DNA of 20,338 nt from the NCBI GenBank assembly GCA_002712305.1, contig PATE01000093.1, positions 18,371 through 38,708 on the forward strand, given 5' to 3'. Source of the stretch: Gemmatimonadota bacterium. GTDB taxonomy: Bacteria; Latescibacterota; UBA2968; UBA8231. Positions within the stretch are counted from its first letter, which is position 1. Each line of letters starts with the position of its first letter. A program made the position numbers and the translations under genes. Below the pieces are notes generated by a model, which was not told where the DNA came from, searched no databases, and saw only the letters and a list, made by a program, of their open reading frames with translations. Positions 2,336 through 17,335 of the stretch are shown here, in pieces.

Positions 2336-2746
2336 ATGGAGACGACCCCACTTGGCTCGACGGAACTGCAGGTCAGTCGTCTCGGATTCGGCGCGGCTCG
2401 CATCGACGCAGATCCGGAGGAGGAGGTGGCCACACTACTGCACCGAACGCTCGATCTGGGCATCAATCTCATCGACACGGCCGACTGCTACGCGCTCAGG
2501 GAAGAACGCATCGGTCGGGCGCTGGAGAGCCGACGCCAAGAGATGGTGCTGGCCACCAAGTGCGGCTGTCTCAGCGACGAGGTACAGGGGGTCGCCTACT
2601 CACGCGCCGTCATCAAAGAGGATGTCGAGAATTCGCTGCGTTGACTGCGGACCGATCACGTCGATCTTCTTCAGCTTCACACGTGCTCCGCCGAGATTCT
2701 TCGCGAAGGACGTGCGTCGGATTCTGCGGGGGTGAAGGTTTGCTAA
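2336..2746 (+). pseudogene. Aldo/keto reductase fragment with in-frame TGA and lost C-terminus
   Basis: ATG at 2336 opens a typical AKR N-terminus ('LGSTELQVSRLGFGAARI', then 'INLIDTADCY' with catalytic Asp and Tyr, and 'LATKCG' with catalytic Lys). The frame stops at TGA 2642-2644, exactly where the family continues. Past the stop the same frame reads 'LRTDHVDLLQLHTCSAEIL', which contains the catalytic His of the AKR tetrad, and then ends at TAA 2744-2746. A single C-to-T change (CGA to TGA) explains the stop. Full-length AKRs are about 300 residues; here fewer than 140 codons remain and the NADPH-binding C-terminal half is gone, with the end of the neighbouring PhyH gene only 14 bp away. 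It is therefore a truncated pseudogene rather than one sequencing error. Its N-terminus resembles that of the broken AKR at 19629. Confidence 0.75.
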
Positions 2747-3619: not shown

Positions 3620-3742
3620 TCAGACGAGAGTGCCGATAAAACGACCGGCGTTTCGCACCAGAATGACACTCGGGAAAGACTCGACCATCTCCATTAGTCT
3701 CTCGCCACACTCGAGCTCTTCACCTGGCTCTGGTTCGAGCTG
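3620..3742 (-). pseudogene. Out-of-frame tail, possibly the C-terminus of the permease remnant
   Basis: Just past the point where the permease frame (3720-4145) degenerates, another minus-strand frame reads 40 codons and ends at TGA 3622-3620. It contains 'LMEMVESFPSVILVRNAG'. Some bacterial cation-chloride-cotransporter-like proteins end in a hydrophilic domain finishing with a similar 'P-x-x-x-L-V' strand, so this may be the original C-terminus brought next to the N-terminus by a large internal deletion that also shifted the frame. This is inference from pattern only; the stretch could also be chance. Confidence 0.35.
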
Positions 3743-4145
3743 CGACGAGAATCGTCGCGGCAGCGACCATCGGGACGGGGACTTCGGGCCAGACAAAGCG
3801 CAGTGACTCGGCCAGTCCGAAACTACAGAGGGTCACCGACAGGGCCTGGGACAGAAACAGGGGCAACCCGAGGGCGCCACCGATTTCCAGACCGAGACTG
3901 CGGGAGATGATGTAGTAGGGCCCTCCCGATCCGACGCGCATGTTCGTCGCTACCGCTGAAACCGACAGGGCCGTGATAAGGGTGATCCCGTTGGCCAACA
4001 CGACAATGGCCAGGGTCGGGAGCAGCCCCGCGTTGCCCACGACCCACCCTGTACGCAGATACATGATGACGCCGAGAATCGTCAGCATCGTCGGTGTGAA
4101 GACACCGACAAAGGCGCCGAGTTTCTTGCGTTCGGTGGCGTTCAT
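3720..4145 (-). pseudogene. Truncated cation-chloride-cotransporter-like (APC superfamily) permease
   Basis: ATG at 4145 opens a 141-codon frame. 'LGAFVGVFTPTMLTILGVIM' followed by 'YLRTGWVVGNAGL' is the first transmembrane region of the bacterial SLC12/cation-chloride-cotransporter-like branch of the amino acid/polyamine/organocation superfamily. Two more hydrophobic spans follow (about residues 43-65 and 88-112), and 'GSGGPYYIISRSLG' is the conserved segment between them. The frame then ends in a non-family tail ('ARTRAR'). Intact members have about 12 helices and several hundred residues, so only the first three spans remain. The likely cause is an internal deletion near 3740. A three-helix fragment cannot form the known transporter fold. 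Confidence 0.7.
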
Positions 4146-8560: not shown

Positions 8561-10831
8561 GTGAAGATCACATCCATCGAACCCCGCCGGGTCACGCTTC
8601 GTTATGTCACACGCGGTGCCTATGAGTTGAGTCACTATCACGACATGACGCAACGCACGGTCTACGTGGTGCGCACCGACACGGGGCTGGTGGGTCTGGG
8701 TGAGAGTGAGCGAACCGAATCTCAAGAGGTGATGGATCGGTATCTGGGGACAAATCCCTTCCAGTGGATGGGGGACGAGACGTCCCTGGGGCTCGGTACC
8801 GCCATGTATGATCTGATGGGTAAGGCTGCCGGTGTGCCCGTCTACCAGCTGTTCGGTCAGAAGCACCGGTCGTGGGTCCCTGTCGCTGCGTGGACGGTGA
8901 GTACACACCCGGAGCGGATGGCCGCCGCCGTGGCTGACTACGCCCAGCAGGGCTACACGTGGATGAAGTTCCACCTGTCACCCTTCGAGAATGTCATCGA
9001 TCAGACCGAAGCGATGCAGCGCGTCGCACCGGAGGGTTTTCGCCTGCACTATGACTTCACCATGCACGGCACCGACGATCACATGCCCAGCCTGCTTGAT
9101 CGTCTTGCCGAGTATCCCATCGCCGGGTGCTTCGAAGATCCGCTTCCGGGTGAAGACCTCGATGGATATATCGAACTCAAGGTGCGAGCGAAACGTCCGA
9201 TCGTGCTGCATCACTTTCCCACAGCCGCGACCTATGAGGTGATGCGCCGTCCTGCCGATGCGTACATGCTCGGTCACATGCGAATCGGCGATGCGCAGCG
9301 ACGCGCCGGTCTCTTCGCAGCAGCGGGCGCGCCTTTCATGTTGCAGAACTCGGGTAGCGACATCACACGGGCGATGACGACTCACATGATGGCCGCCTTT
9401 CCAACGGGCAGCTTTCACACCGTCACGGCAACCGAGATTCTACAGGACAGGTTCGTGACGGAACCGCTGAATCCGGTGAATGGGTTCCTCCGTGTTTCTG
9501 AGGCACCCGGACTCGGTGTCGAGCTCGACGAGGAGAAGATGGCCGAGTTCGAACAGCAGGAGACTTCGCCGTCCGCGCGTTTTCTGCTCGAGACGCGATA
9601 TGCCAATGGGGCGCATCTGCGCACACGAAAGGACCCGAATAACCCCCATTTCATGGTTCGCCCCGATTGGAGTCGTGAACTACCGCCACCCAGTTTTGCG
9701 GCGCCCCTGTCCACCCGCTATTGGGACGACGACGAGACGGACGCCTTTTCCGAGGCCTATGCCGAGGTGGAGAAAGAGGGTTCACGCCTCACCTTCGCCG
9801 AACCCGATGGAGGCGACCGAGCCCAGGTGTTGTCAACGCACGTGATCTGCCGACAGCCGGGTCGATACATCGGTTGGCCCACCATCGTGCGTCGCGCCAA
9901 CGACGAACTGGTCGTTGCCTTTTCCGGCGATCGCGATTCGCACGTGTGTCCCTTTGGCAAGATGCAGTTGGTGCGCAGTCAGGACGGCGGTAAGAGTTGG
10001 TCGAAGGAGCGCACGATCCTCAACGGCCCTCTCGACGATCGCGACTCCGGCCTCATCGAGACGACGAAGGGAACCCTAGTGGCCAGTTGGTTCACGTCGA
10101 TCTCGTTCACGACAGACGATGACTACACGGAACATGCGGCGACCATCTCAGAACAAACACGAGAAAAAGAGTCGGGACATTGGGTACATCGATCCACCGA
10201 TGGAGGCGACACGTGGGGAGAGAAGATCGCCGTGTGCTCCTCTGCGCCCCATGGCCCGATTCAGCTGGCCGATGGGCGACTGCTCTACGTCGGCAATGGC
10301 ACGCTCGATGGCGAACCCGTCGTCGTGGCGGAGGAGTCCGCCGATGACGGTCAGACGTGGTCGGTGATCAGTCGCATCCTCGTGGACGAGACGATCGAGT
10401 CGGGAATCGGTGAGCCCCATCTGGTGGAATGTGCCAGTGGTCGACTGGTGGCGATGTTTCGCACACGGTGGCCGAGTATCGAACGCCGATTGTTGTTTCA
10501 GTCGGAGAGTGAGGACGGGGGACACACGTGGACGCCGGCACGACCGACGACGATTTTCGGCTACCCGCCGCATTTGAAACGATTGGCCGACGATCGGCTG
10601 CTACTGACTTACGGAAAACGAATCGTGCCCCAAGGCGAATTCGCACGGGTCAGTCGCGATGAAGGTCGCACATGGGGAGAGGAACTGCTGCTTTCGCCCG
10701 ACTACAGCATGGACCTGGGGTATCCGGCGTCGACGCAGTTGGCAGATGGCACGATCTACACCGTCTTCTATGGAATTCTCCCTGGGGACGAGAAGACGAG
10801 TCTGCAGGGTATCCATTGGCGCCTTCGGTGA
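8561..10831 (+). CDS. Enolase-superfamily (MR/MLE-like) domain fused to Asp-box sialidase/BNR domain
   Basis: A 756-residue protein from GTG 8561 (GGAG about 12 bases upstream). Residues 1 to about 345 follow the enolase-superfamily layout: capping domain, 'WMKFHL' at the end of barrel strand 2 (K136), 'LHYDF' (D165) and 'CFEDPLPGEDL' (E192). The third metal ligand and the strand-7 His expected in mandelate racemase are not evident, and KxK is KxH. Residues about 420-756 form a sialidase-like beta-propeller with five Asp boxes (SQDGGKSW 473, STDGGDTW 545, SADDGQTW 593, SEDGGHTW 650, SRDEGRTW 698) and 'GRYIGWPTIVR'. The linker is acidic. The two families are normally separate proteins; here one frame spans both without a break. 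No signal peptide. It is the first gene of the plus-strand cluster. The reaction cannot be assigned; acid-sugar dehydration plus glycan hydrolysis would be the naive reading. Confidence 0.85.
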   Translation: MKITSIEPRRVTLRYVTRGAYELSHYHDMTQRTVYVVRTDTGLVGLGESERTESQEVMDRYLGTNPFQWMGDETSLGLGTAMYDLMGKAAGVPVYQLFGQKHRSWVPVAAWTVSTHPERMAAAVADYAQQGYTWMKFHLSPFENVIDQTEAMQRVAPEGFRLHYDFTMHGTDDHMPSLLDRLAEYPIAGCFEDPLPGEDLDGYIELKVRAKRPIVLHHFPTAATYEVMRRPADAYMLGHMRIGDAQRRAGLFAAAGAPFMLQNSGSDITRAMTTHMMAAFPTGSFHTVTATEILQDRFVTEPLNPVNGFLRVSEAPGLGVELDEEKMAEFEQQETSPSARFLLETRYANGAHLRTRKDPNNPHFMVRPDWSRELPPPSFAAPLSTRYWDDDETDAFSEAYAEVEKEGSRLTFAEPDGGDRAQVLSTHVICRQPGRYIGWPTIVRRANDELVVAFSGDRDSHVCPFGKMQLVRSQDGGKSWSKERTILNGPLDDRDSGLIETTKGTLVASWFTSISFTTDDDYTEHAATISEQTREKESGHWVHRSTDGGDTWGEKIAVCSSAPHGPIQLADGRLLYVGNGTLDGEPVVVAEESADDGQTWSVISRILVDETIESGIGEPHLVECASGRLVAMFRTRWPSIERRLLFQSESEDGGHTWTPARPTTIFGYPPHLKRLADDRLLLTYGKRIVPQGEFARVSRDEGRTWGEELLLSPDYSMDLGYPASTQLADGTIYTVFYGILPGDEKTSLQGIHWRLR

Positions 10832-10841
10832 AGGGATTGGG

Positions 10842-11075
10842 ATGGAAATACTGACGAACACCAGGTTACTCACGGCGCTGTTTCTGCTGGCCGTCTTCAT
10901 GGGCGCCGGCCCCGGGCTGCATCTGATCAATCCCGACCTGACGGATCCGCACGTGCAACTGACTACGTTCGGTTTGCCCATCATCTATGTGTGGGGTCTG
11001 TTCTGGTACGTCATTCAGTTCGCCGTGATTGTCATTGCCTATCGGTTTGTGTGGAGTCAGCGAGACGATGACTGA
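10842..11075 (+). CDS. Small two-helix membrane protein, partner of the SSS symporter (DUF3311-like)
   Basis: A 77-residue protein from ATG 10842 with two hydrophobic spans (about residues 8-28 and 45-68) and a charged end ('WSQRDDD'). It starts 10 bp after the fusion gene and its TGA overlaps the ATG of the symporter in ATGACTGA, so the two are probably translationally coupled. Short membrane proteins of this size and layout (DUF3311 and similar) commonly sit immediately before sodium:solute symporter genes and are thought to act as accessory subunits. The family name is by size, context and general pattern, not by a diagnostic motif. Confidence 0.7.
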   Translation: MEILTNTRLLTALFLLAVFMGAGPGLHLINPDLTDPHVQLTTFGLPIIYVWGLFWYVIQFAVIVIAYRFVWSQRDDD

Positions 11076-12699
11076 GTCTGCTGAGGCCAGTCTGGGTGCT
11101 GCTCCGTATGTGATGCTGGCGCTGTATCTGTGTGTGTTGCTCGCGTTTGGGATCTTCGGATATCGCCGCCGGCAGGCTGACAGCGAAGAAGACTATTACC
11201 TGGCGAGTCGCTCGCAGGGCTGGATCGTCTCGTCGCTGACGATCATGGCGACGTTCTTCAGTTCCTTTGCCCTGTTGGGTGCCCCTGGAATGGTCTACCG
11301 GGACGGTGTCGTGTTCGCCCTCTTCAGCCTCAACGTGCCGGTCGCCGGGGTCGCCATCTATCTGCTCGGCGCACGAATTCGACGTGCCGGCCGCGATGGC
11401 GGATTCCTGACGCCGGCGGACATGATCGCCCACCACTACAAGGCACCCGTGTCGTTGCGACTCCTGGTGGCGCTGGTGGGTCTGCTCTACGCAGTGCCCT
11501 ACGTGGTGATGCAGATCCAGGCGGGTGGGATCGTGTCACAGCAGTTGTTCGGTCGGGAGGCCTTTGAGACCGGTGCTTGTGTCCTGGCGTTGATCACCAT
11601 GCTCTACATCATGGTAGGCGGGATGCGGTCGGTGGCGTGGACCGACGCCGTGCAGGGTGGCCTGTTGGTGGGTGGTATGCTGATGGCGGGTATCTGCGCC
11701 GTTTGGGTGCTCGGTGGGCCGGGTGCCTTCTTCGACGCCGTCGCCGAGTTGCCGGCGCGCTCGCTCGCCGCACCCGGTACGTCGAGTCGCTGGACCCCGG
11801 AGGTGTTGTTTACGGCGTCGCTGTTCGCTTCTCTCGGATCGATGATTCAGCCCGCTCAGTGGATGCGCTTCTACGCGGCTCGCTCATCGCAGGTCTTGAG
11901 ACGGAGTGCGCTCATTTTCGCTGCTGTGCTGACGCTCTGCTTCTTCTTCGGTGTCATGCTTGTTGGGCTGGGCGGGCAGGTGCTGTATCCTCTCGTGGAT
12001 GCCATGGGCAACTACAGCTTTGACGCAGCGGGTCGAGTGCTTCCGAATATAGCGGTGGGGCAATCGGCGTCGGAGTTTGATCAGATTCTGGTGGTGGTCC
12101 TGAAGAATCACCTGCCGGAGTTGCTCGGGCCTGCTGGGGCTGTGCTCGCGTCTCTCATTCTGGTGGCGATCATGGCCGCCGCCATGAGTACGGCCGACTC
12201 CAATCTTCACGCCCTGAGTGCCCTGGTGACCCACGATATCTATGACCAGTTCGTTCGACCTCATGCCTCACAACGAGAGCGTGTGTGGGTCGGTCGAGCT
12301 CTGATTGCGGTCGTGACAACCCTCGCCCTGATCCTCGTCGTCATCGCCCGACGTTCTGAGGCCAACCCGTTATCGATGATCGTCATCCTTGGATTGTTGG
12401 CCATCGCCTTCTCGACGCAATTGCTGCCGCTGACGGTGGACATGCTCTATCTCCAGAGAGGGACACGACAGGGCGCCATTGCCGGTCTGATCGGTGGTGT
12501 GCTGACGATCTTCCTTCTCAGTCCGTTCTTCCCCATGCTCGCGGGGAACACCCTCGGTGACCTCCTGTCGAGCATGCGCGGGATGATCGACACAGGCGCT
12601 TGGGGATTGGTGGTGAATGTCACCCTCTTCGTCGTTGTCACCTTCCTGACGCGAGGCGCGGACAATGGCCGCCTGTCGCCGGCCGAACACGACGGTTAG
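11068..12699 (+). CDS. Sodium:solute symporter (SSS family)
   Basis: A 543-residue integral membrane protein with roughly 13 hydrophobic spans, the usual size for the SSS family. ATG 11068 overlaps the preceding small gene by eight bases; no strong Shine-Dalgarno is present, consistent with coupling. Landmarks are 'TFFSSFALLGAPG' (residues 62-74, first inverted-repeat helix), 'GGMRSVAWTDAVQ' (184-196, the SSS signature) and 'AAAMSTADSNL' (370-380), which carries the Ser/Thr pair used for the Na2 site in vSGLT-type proteins. It imports a solute using the sodium gradient. The neighbours (sulfatase, dehydrogenases, RraA, enolase-type protein) suggest a sugar or sugar acid, but substrate specificity in this family cannot be read from sequence. 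Confidence 0.93.
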   Translation: MTESAEASLGAAPYVMLALYLCVLLAFGIFGYRRRQADSEEDYYLASRSQGWIVSSLTIMATFFSSFALLGAPGMVYRDGVVFALFSLNVPVAGVAIYLLGARIRRAGRDGGFLTPADMIAHHYKAPVSLRLLVALVGLLYAVPYVVMQIQAGGIVSQQLFGREAFETGACVLALITMLYIMVGGMRSVAWTDAVQGGLLVGGMLMAGICAVWVLGGPGAFFDAVAELPARSLAAPGTSSRWTPEVLFTASLFASLGSMIQPAQWMRFYAARSSQVLRRSALIFAAVLTLCFFFGVMLVGLGGQVLYPLVDAMGNYSFDAAGRVLPNIAVGQSASEFDQILVVVLKNHLPELLGPAGAVLASLILVAIMAAAMSTADSNLHALSALVTHDIYDQFVRPHASQRERVWVGRALIAVVTTLALILVVIARRSEANPLSMIVILGLLAIAFSTQLLPLTVDMLYLQRGTRQGAIAGLIGGVLTIFLLSPFFPMLAGNTLGDLLSSMRGMIDTGAWGLVVNVTLFVVVTFLTRGADNGRLSPAEHDG

Positions 12700-12709
12700 G
12701 TTGATTTTC

Positions 12710-13031
12710 ATGTCCGAATCTCAACAGTTTCTCTACAGCCTCCGCCCGACACGCCTTGAGATGCTCACGGAAGGACCTACAGACTGGGAGCAGGCGGTAG
12801 TGGCAGAACCACTTCGCGTATCTGCAGCGGCTGGGCAAGGAGGGAATCGTTCGGATCGCGGGTCGGACTTCAGATCAAGGCCCGGACACCGTGGGAATCG
12901 TGATTCTCGAAGTTCAGGATGAGGTGGTGGCGAAGCAGATCATGGGGCAGGATCCCGCCGTGTGCGACGGTGTGTTGGCTGCTTCCCTGCAGCCCTTTCG
13001 GATCGCCGTGGATGCAGCAGACATGGACTGA
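12710..13031 (+). pseudogene. YCII-related (YciI-like) small protein, frameshifted
   Basis: ATG at 12710, 10 bp after the symporter, begins 'MSESQQFLYSLRPTR' and stays in frame to about 12808. An apparent extra C in 12809-12810 then shifts the reading. If it is removed the frame continues as 'AEHFAYLQRLGKEGIVRIAG' and runs to TGA 13029-13031, ending 17 bp before the next start, for a product of about 106 residues. That length, the restored His, 'LGKEG' and 'AGRTSDQGPDTVGIVI' fit the YCII-related ferredoxin-like fold, whose catalytic role is uncertain. As written the gene is broken; a one-base sequencing error would make it intact. Confidence 0.6.
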
Positions 13032-15995: not shown

Positions 15996-16745
15996 ATGAC
16001 ACAGAGCCCTCGTGACTTCGACCGAGAGCGCGAACTGCTCGAGGACATCCGCCAGTTCGACACGCCATCGGTGACCAATGTGGTCGCCACCTATCCAACG
16101 CATCCGCTCTGCCTGGGGTTGTACAACCCTCTGACAGAGAACTGGTACACCGACGACTCCTTGCGCTGCATGTATCCCGAACTTGGTGCGCTGGCTGGAT
16201 ACGCCGTGACGGCTGTCTATGGACCCAGAGACCCTGACTTCGGCCGGTTGGATGGAATGGACGTCTACGACGCGCTGGATGCTTCACCCAAGCCGACGAT
16301 CTTCTGTTTTCAGCAGAAGTTTCCGCCCGAGTTGGCGGGCAAGATCGGTCTGTCGGGTGGCAACATGACGACGGCCATGAAGGCCCTCGGCTGCCTGGGC
16401 GCTGTGTCCAACGGCCCGTCCCGTGATATCGATGAGATCCGACCAATGAAGTTCCAGTATCTGTTGAGTGGGATCTCTCCCGGCCACGGTGGCCAGGAGG
16501 TGTACGCCGTCAACGTGCCGGTGCACATTGCCGGGATGGATGTGGCGCCCGGTGAGATCGTGCACATGGATGAAAATGGTGCGGTGAAGTTTCCTGCCCA
16601 GCATCTCGAGCAGGTCGTGGAGAATCTTCACAAGCTGAGGGAAGAGGAAGAGGAGCGGATGGGGAAGTTGGGCAAGGCGACGTCTGCCGCGGAGATTCGC
16701 GCGATTTTCTCCGGGCAGCCATACGGGGGCGACGATAAGAAGTGA
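15996..16745 (+). CDS. RraA family protein (possible class II pyruvate aldolase/decarboxylase-like)
   Basis: A 249-residue protein from ATG 15996, preceded by AAAGGTGAT. The core follows the RraA/HMG-CHA aldolase fold: 'GGNMTTAMKALGCLGAVSNG' then 'PSRDIDEI' (R143-D144, the family Arg-Asp), followed by 'GMDVAPGEIVHMDENGAVKF' (180-199). Characterised relatives include the RNase E regulator RraA and Mg-dependent 4-hydroxy-4-methyl-2-oxoglutarate aldolases and oxaloacetate decarboxylases; environmental members in sugar clusters more likely cleave a 2-keto acid. The chain is longer than minimal RraA (about 160), with extra N-terminal residues. Its stop overlaps the next start by GTGA. Confidence 0.88.
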   Translation: MTQSPRDFDRERELLEDIRQFDTPSVTNVVATYPTHPLCLGLYNPLTENWYTDDSLRCMYPELGALAGYAVTAVYGPRDPDFGRLDGMDVYDALDASPKPTIFCFQQKFPPELAGKIGLSGGNMTTAMKALGCLGAVSNGPSRDIDEIRPMKFQYLLSGISPGHGGQEVYAVNVPVHIAGMDVAPGEIVHMDENGAVKFPAQHLEQVVENLHKLREEEEERMGKLGKATSAAEIRAIFSGQPYGGDDKK

Positions 16746-17335
16746 AGTTCCTGCTCCGACAGGTTTTGGTTGTGGCGCTGGTCTTCTCCTGCTTGACGGC
16801 ACACGCCAGCGACGAGCTGGACCAGCTGCTGGCCCAGGGACTCGAAGATCTGATGGAGATTCAGGTCGTGACCCCCGGGCGCCAGCCGCAAAGGATCGCC
16901 CAGGCGCCGGCGAATGTCACGGCCATCACTGCCGCTGTCACCGCCTCAGCCCTTGCCCACCAGCGCGACCGATTCCTCGACGAAGGTTTCGACAACTTCA
17001 TCGACAAGCCTTTTCGACGCGAACGGATCTATGGGTGCCTGCACGAGATGCTCGGCACGACGTTCGAATTCGCAGAGGGAGAGGCGGAGCCGGCGCCGAT
17101 CGGTGACATTTCCCTCGACTCTTTGGTCAGTGTCGCCTCGGTCCTGCCCGATGTTCTTTTCGACGGGCTCCTGCAGGCGACGCAGGTGGGCGACATCAAC
17201 GCTACACGCGAACATCTCGACAAGATCCATGAGATGGGTGGTGACGCGTCGGTGCTGGCGTCTCAACTGCGCGCGATGGCCCATGCCTACGATATGCGTG
17301 GCATCGCCGACTGGCTCGAAAGCATTCAGCGCTAG
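16742..17335 (+). CDS. Chimeric ORF: TonB-receptor N-terminus joined to hybrid histidine kinase tail
   Basis: GTG at 16742 overlaps the RraA stop. The first 22 residues are a signal peptide (cleavage after 'TAHA'), and 'DLMEIQVVTPGRQPQRIAQA' to about residue 62 is the start of a TonB-dependent receptor plug domain. From about residue 63 the sequence becomes the last third of a response-regulator receiver ('VTASALAHQRDRFLDEG', 'FIDKPFRRERI', with Thr67 and Lys89-Pro90) and then an all-helical C-terminal region typical of hybrid histidine kinases, to residue 197. The receiver lacks its phospho-acceptor Asp and acidic pocket, and the receptor lacks its barrel, so neither half can work as its family does. 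The simplest reading is a large deletion joining two neighbouring genes in frame. Expression is unknown; the Shine-Dalgarno is weak. Confidence 0.65.
   Translation: MKFLLRQVLVVALVFSCLTAHASDELDQLLAQGLEDLMEIQVVTPGRQPQRIAQAPANVTAITAAVTASALAHQRDRFLDEGFDNFIDKPFRRERIYGCLHEMLGTTFEFAEGEAEPAPIGDISLDSLVSVASVLPDVLFDGLLQATQVGDINATREHLDKIHEMGGDASVLASQLRAMAHAYDMRGIADWLESIQR

Follow-up and report, generated by a model that had tools for sequence, protein, structure and literature searches.

The window analysed here, a stretch of 20,338 nucleotides, contains on its forward strand a gene of 756 codons (8561-10831, GTG start, no internal stop) that encodes an enolase-superfamily half and a sialidase-fold propeller half (Table 1). 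Pfam recognised MR_MLE_C over residues 120-325 (E 8.5e-23) and BNR_2 over residues 540-733 (E 9.5e-23) of the protein. The single open frame reported by an earlier note on this DNA is present and uninterrupted, and the same frame occurs in a related genome (L001, described below). Structures were predicted with AF2 for each half separately, so that the models carry no interdomain arrangement. They reached a pLDDT of 89.1 and a pTM of 0.89 for the enolase half, and 90.0 and 0.90 for the propeller half. Together with the fold matches given below, these values bear out the view of one chain with two enzyme folds.

Table 1. Features of the fusion gene and of the genes downstream of it (positions in the window; residues numbered along the fusion protein).
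Feature	Position	Strand	Basis
Fusion gene, 756 aa: enolase-superfamily half and sialidase-fold propeller half	8561..10831	+	ORF; Pfam; frame in L001 and, up to contig end, L044
Enolase-superfamily half, residues 1-412, N-terminal capping part shortened	8561..9796	+	Stand-alone relatives; AF2; 2pgw match
K136-F137-H138, KxH in place of superfamily KxK	8966..8974	+	K136, H138 in 30/30 relatives; aligned to KxK of 2p88
D165, predicted first metal ligand	9053..9055	+	30/30; aligned to ligand Asp of 2p88
E192, predicted second metal ligand	9134..9136	+	30/30; aligned to ligand Glu of 2p88
H217-H218, replacing acidic third metal ligand	9209..9214	+	H217 30/30, H218 27/30; columns D-E in 2p88 and 2qde, G-E in 3bjs
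Q262, end of strand 7, near usual His/base position	9344..9346	+	30/30
Enolase-subfamily C-terminal extension, residues 333-412	9557..9796	+	Conserved in stand-alone relatives (alignment A1)
Junction, residues 411-421	9791..9823	+	Stand-alone enolases end and stand-alone propellers start here
Sialidase-fold propeller half, residues 413-756	9797..10828	+	Stand-alone relatives; AF2; 5hx0 match
Asp box 1, SQDGGKSW, residue 473	9977..10000	+	S.D.G..W match
Asp box 2, STDGGDTW, residue 545	10193..10216	+	S.D.G..W match
Asp box 3, SADDGQTW, residue 593	10337..10360	+	S.D.G..W match
E618, equivalent of sialidase Glu activating the nucleophile	10412..10414	+	11/11; aligned to Glu of 'TTEAQ' in 4bbw
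Asp box 4, SEDGGHTW, residue 650	10508..10531	+	S.D.G..W match
Asp box 5, SRDEGRTW, residue 698	10652..10675	+	S.D.G..W match
Y721, equivalent of sialidase Tyr nucleophile	10721..10723	+	11/11; aligned to Tyr of 'GYSC' in 4bbw
DUF3311-like small membrane protein, 77 aa	10842..11075	+	Starts 10 bases past fusion stop; DUF3311 E 1.1e-5, below curated cut-off
Sodium:solute symporter (SSF), 8-base overlap with DUF3311-like gene	11068..12699	+	Pfam SSF E 3.2e-49; same place in L001, 90% identity
YciI-like gene, frameshifted near 12808	12692..13031	+	Two frames match intact L001 gene (YCII E 8.2e-11)
Gfo/Idh/MocA oxidoreductase, 375 aa	13049..14176	+	Pfam E 1.4e-16; same place in L001, 83%

The order fusion gene, DUF3311-like gene, symporter, YciI-like gene and Gfo/Idh/MocA oxidoreductase is shared by the window and L001, and beyond the oxidoreductase the gene orders differ. 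A scan for promoters and terminators returned no more than expected by chance. The YciI-like gene of L001 (12136-12480) is intact. Upstream of the fusion, a truncated aldo-keto reductase (AKR; window 2345-2725) matches residues 3-129 of an intact L001 gene at 74%, and the approximately 5.8 kb separating it from the fusion differ from L001, which has a gene for a DinB-type polymerase at this place. This surrounding DNA also contains 141 aa of an amino acid permease (3720-4145), a fragment matching the first quarter only of the Pfam AA_permease profile (3.8e-12), as well as a 197-aa frame without Pfam match (16742-17335), which starts like a secreted receptor and continues like part of a response regulator and is possibly the remnant of two genes. 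In L001, a neighbouring gene of 1179 aa had been considered as a heparinase-like lyase, an assignment dropped for want of any Pfam or NCBIfam match.

The limits of the two halves could be drawn from their stand-alone relatives. Stand-alone enolases of 411-418 aa, 57-74% identical to the enolase half, cover it up to about residue 412, and stand-alone propellers, 52-55% identical to the propeller half, start at about residue 421. Hence, the fusion protein corresponds to two complete proteins joined end to end, and the true join measures about 10 residues (411-421). Because the stand-alone enolases end at 411-418 aa, residues 346-412 are a C-terminal extension common to these relatives and not a linker; of the layout first proposed, the two domains are retained and the linker is reassigned to the enolase family protein. 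In the AF2 model of the enolase half, residues 375-380 are of low confidence. A mixed alignment (A3) of the full-length fusion with single-domain relatives was discarded, as propellers were aligned in it against the enolase half. Both kinds of stand-alone protein also occur in the window genome (G000) itself, with enolases at 62% and 60% and a propeller at 52%; a short frame of 153 aa in the same genome (G000:C127:32275-32607) matches only fusion residues 306-417, i.e., the enolase C-terminal extension alone. Finally, inspection of the N-terminus of the fusion protein and of the stand-alone propellers found no hydrophobic stretch resembling a signal peptide, unlike the solute-binding protein taken as control, which does show one. 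The fusion protein is therefore probably cytosolic.

Among solved structures, the model of the enolase half was closest to 2pgw (Z 35.3 over 332 residues, 2.9 Å), other superfamily members lying within about 2 Z units. This match and the Pfam hit both identify the enolase superfamily fold, made of a capping domain and a (beta/alpha)7beta barrel. Members of this superfamily abstract a proton alpha to a carboxylate and have three metal ligands, normally acidic and Asn in some, placed where strands 3, 4, and 5 end. A KxK motif at strand 2 is typical of the MLE and MR types and varies in other subgroups, and the base on the opposite face is a strand-6 Lys in the MLE type and a His-Asp dyad in the MR type. 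The residues highlighted by the earlier note (K136-F-H138, D165, E192, 'PIVLHHFP', and 'LQNSGSD') all read as it had stated, and its description of a non-canonical enolase-type active site is accurate as regards the KxH, the H217-H218 pair and the lack of a strand-7 His. D165 and E192 stand at the first two ligand positions; the third, correctly described as devoid of an acidic residue, is occupied by an invariant His217, which may act as a substitute metal ligand. No opposite-face base (strand-6 Lys or Asp, strand-7 His) was found in alignments to superfamily members and relatives, these positions being taken by G238-H239 and Q262-N263, with G238 at the strand-6 Lys of 2p88.

These departures had been taken as a peculiarity of the fusion, a view that conservation contradicts. 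Counted over 30 relatives, nearly all of them stand-alone, KxH replaces KxK in every one. Because K136, H138, D165, E192, D193, H217, and Q262 are all invariant in this set, the KxH/His-His pattern is the mark of an enolase subgroup rather than of a decayed domain. As the canonical acid-base partners of the opposite face are missing, the reaction of the enolase half, and whether it is catalytic at all, is uncertain; in NCBIfam, no dehydratase model came near its cut-off.

The model of the propeller half was best matched by 5hx0 (Z 40.6 over 320 residues, 2.5 Å), followed by GH33 sialidases at Z of about 35, among them 2ber (Z 35.3 over 304 residues, 2.5 Å). The six-bladed propeller and the Asp boxes of GH33 are present, and all five well-formed boxes that had been claimed were recovered. 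Catalytic residues of sialidases include Arg1, Arg2, the acid Asp, Glu, and Tyr. With sites placed by sequence alignment, the Tyr nucleophile and its Glu partner have their equivalents in Y721 and E618, and R634 aligns to Arg2, the placement of Arg3 being uncertain. The Arg triad, which in GH33 serves the carboxylate, is incomplete, the Arg1 position being Gly438, conserved in all relatives covering it (10 of 10), and the position of the Asp acid/base is Pro464, with His461 nearby, in an alignment-dependent comparison with NanA. Invariant positions across 11 of 11 relatives are D492, D493, R494, D495, H564, E618, R634, R687, and Y721. Although Glu and Tyr are kept, Gly replaces Arg1 and conservation of the acid Asp is lost; "sialidase" is therefore unsupported as a functional name, and the earlier designation of the propeller as such is not upheld.

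A search of the phylum recovered the fusion in 3 of 64 genomes. Besides the window genome, a full-length copy with a 756-codon frame and 85% amino acid identity lies on JABJJN010000020.1 (L001), a contig of G020, a MAG labelled Gemmatimonadetes bacterium and one species away from the window. The third copy (L044), also 85% identical, belongs to G006, a genome assigned to another genus; it covers residues 1-482 and is ended by the contig end 70 codons after the junction. Comparison of the window with L001 shows nearly saturated synonymous sites and a dN/dS of 0.015 for the enolase half and 0.067 for the propeller half, values that are rough owing to this saturation, the excess of synonymous change being clear. 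Both halves are under strong purifying selection. Because L001 keeps the full 756-codon frame despite saturated synonymous sites, the frame is not due to chance, nor is the fusion an artefact of assembly or of a frameshift. In the trees built for each half, the three fused copies form one clade with 100% bootstrap, and for this reason the fusion probably arose in a single event. A single scan of other phyla was of a kind that detects close relatives only, so that more distant fusions may exist there. Neither a relative in the viral contigs searched nor a place covering most of the query in the plasmid records searched was found. Where other enolase or propeller genes have long open frames next to them, these were considered as possible further fusions; their extra stretches had no Pfam match and were taken as shadow frames.

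The unfused state is also observed. G042 (L065), placed within the same class but in a different family, has separate genes for the enolase (427 aa) and the propeller, arranged in the order of the fusion; the two overlap by 11 bases, the propeller gene starting in a different frame before the enolase gene ends and then running off the contig. Upstream of this overlapping pair are genes for an SDR, a xylose-isomerase-like protein, a GHL10-like protein, and a Gfo/Idh/MocA protein. The earlier note had named separate genes in relatives and a break in the linker as grounds for rejecting the fusion: separate genes do exist (L065), and the junction is free of stops and frameshifts in all three fused genomes. 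In L045 (G006) and L047 (G021), the cluster order is propeller, AKR, GHL10-like gene and enolase, the enolase being truncated in G006 and the propeller disrupted in G021; partial clusters of the same type occur at L048, L050, and L053 (G022, another G021 contig and the window genome). Unfused homologues are thus neighbours in related genomes at L065 and in the L045 and L047 clusters, and the enolase and propeller families meet repeatedly in carbohydrate-type gene clusters. Hence, with two genes so tightly paired, their fusion is to be expected.

Several neighbouring observations concern the enolase family. The truncated enolase of the G006 cluster (L045:6890-7516, 208 aa) is 78% identical to the first 207 residues of the fusion. 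L046, which is sister to the fused enolase and the closest of the stand-alone ones, overlaps an ABC transporter operon that includes a solute-binding protein. In the window genome, a 41% enolase paralogue (L012, G000:C24) adjoins a GHL10-like gene and a Gfo/Idh/MocA gene 48% identical to that of the window, as a parallel cluster, and the fusion protein has matches at 56 places (E 1e-3 or better), mostly enolase-superfamily genes, which represents a large expansion.

The reading that we favour, and consider probable, is that of a real two-domain cytosolic protein resulting from the merger of two neighbour genes of one carbohydrate-catabolic operon. The order of the genes, the folds, the conservation pattern and how old the fusion is are established, and the chemistry that follows is inferred at every step. 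The symporter would import a sugar acid or an acidic glycoside, and the propeller, with its Glu/Tyr pair and without Arg1 and the acid Asp, would release or rearrange the sugar. The enolase half would bind Mg2+ via D165, E192, and His217 and abstract the proton alpha to the carboxylate with K136/H138 as base, in a one-base reaction through which the product would be dehydrated or epimerised. The Gfo/Idh/MocA enzyme, by oxidoreduction, and others would then process it further. The fusion would set a 1:1 ratio and bring two consecutive steps together. Judged by context, it is plausible that glycan hydrolysis is coupled to acid-sugar chemistry. A bifunctional enzyme performing two consecutive acidic-sugar steps, in which one half would hold its metal through Asp, Glu and His and use the KxH as base, the propeller would act without Arg1 and the acid Asp, and the partner families are expanded across a bacterial lineage, is a tentative proposal against which we would still lean.

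Other readings were weighed against the merger of operon partners. A neutral fusion, in which a chance stop loss in an overlapping gene pair was harmless and left the two activities uncoupled, is conceivable without being favoured: the 11-base overlap in L065 implies that one small indel could fuse the pair, and most relatives lack the fusion, yet the fused frame has been retained since before the split between the window and L001, long enough for synonymous sites to saturate, and it is also kept in a third genome of another genus. It is unlikely that one of the two halves is inactive as a catalyst and acts for the other as a scaffold, oligomerisation or substrate-binding module. The enolase half does lack an acidic residue at the third ligand position as well as the strand-6 Lys/Asp and the strand-7 His, and the propeller lacks the sialidase Arg1 and acid Asp; however, the replacement residues are invariant (30/30 in the enolase, 11/11 in the propeller), suggesting active sites that were altered, not lost, and the lower of the two dN/dS values (0.015) is that of the enolase half. 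A true sialidase coupled to a canonical acid-sugar dehydratase would agree with both folds (5hx0 at Z 40.6 and GH33 at Z of about 35 for the propeller, the enolase fold for the other half), but is very improbable given Gly438 at Arg1, Pro464 with His461 nearby at the acid Asp, and no dehydratase model near cut-off in NCBIfam. The joining of two genes by an assembly or sequencing error can practically be dismissed. Errors or decay do occur nearby, as illustrated by the frameshifted YciI-like gene (near 12808) and the truncated AKR (2345-2725), but the error is refuted by the same in-frame junction in the independent assemblies G020 and G006.

The merger of operon partners, as favoured here, ties two large uncharacterised families to one pathway, so that a substrate found for one half would suggest that of its partner and would also inform many stand-alone relatives in the same bacteria. 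Invariant KxH and His-His residues define a subgroup of enolases, and for this subgroup none of the NCBIfam models approaches its cut-off. If this subgroup binds its metal via a His ligand, the range of capabilities of the superfamily would be widened.

Compared with the MR_MLE enolase superfamily (PF13378; 2pgw, the N-succinyl Arg/Lys racemase 2p88, and muconate cycloisomerases), the enolase half shares the fold over residues 1-336 (Z 33-35), the position of the KxK and the first two ligands. It differs by its KxH, by His217-His218 at the third ligand, by the lack of a strand-6 Lys/Asp and of a strand-7 His, as well as by a shortened capping domain, a C-terminal extension of about 80 residues and the attached propeller. 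With GH33 sialidases (the Micromonospora enzyme 2ber, NanA 2ya7), the propeller half has in common the six-bladed fold (Z of about 35), the Asp boxes, the Glu/Tyr pair and an Arg2-like R634; in contrast, it has no Arg1, no conserved acid Asp and no signal peptide, and carries an enolase domain. Its closest solved relative is Dfer_1899 of Dyadobacter fermentans (5hx0), a BNR_2-like protein of unknown function with 28% identity over 320 residues, in which the E, R, R, and Y positions are common and which is stand-alone. In the open-access literature searched, no report of an enolase-propeller fusion was found, nor anything relevant on 5hx0 or on a His third ligand. A large lineage-specific expansion of MR-like enolase paralogues has been described in SAR202 Chloroflexota, a marine bacterial group (PMC6946804). 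It resembles the 56 places matched in the window genome, in a paper that mentions neither a sialidase nor a fusion; the lineage differs, the named relative of the window genome being labelled Gemmatimonadetes. Within that scope the domain combination described here is new, and it belongs to a familiar kind, that of Rosetta-stone fusions between operon partners, here with two poorly characterised active sites.
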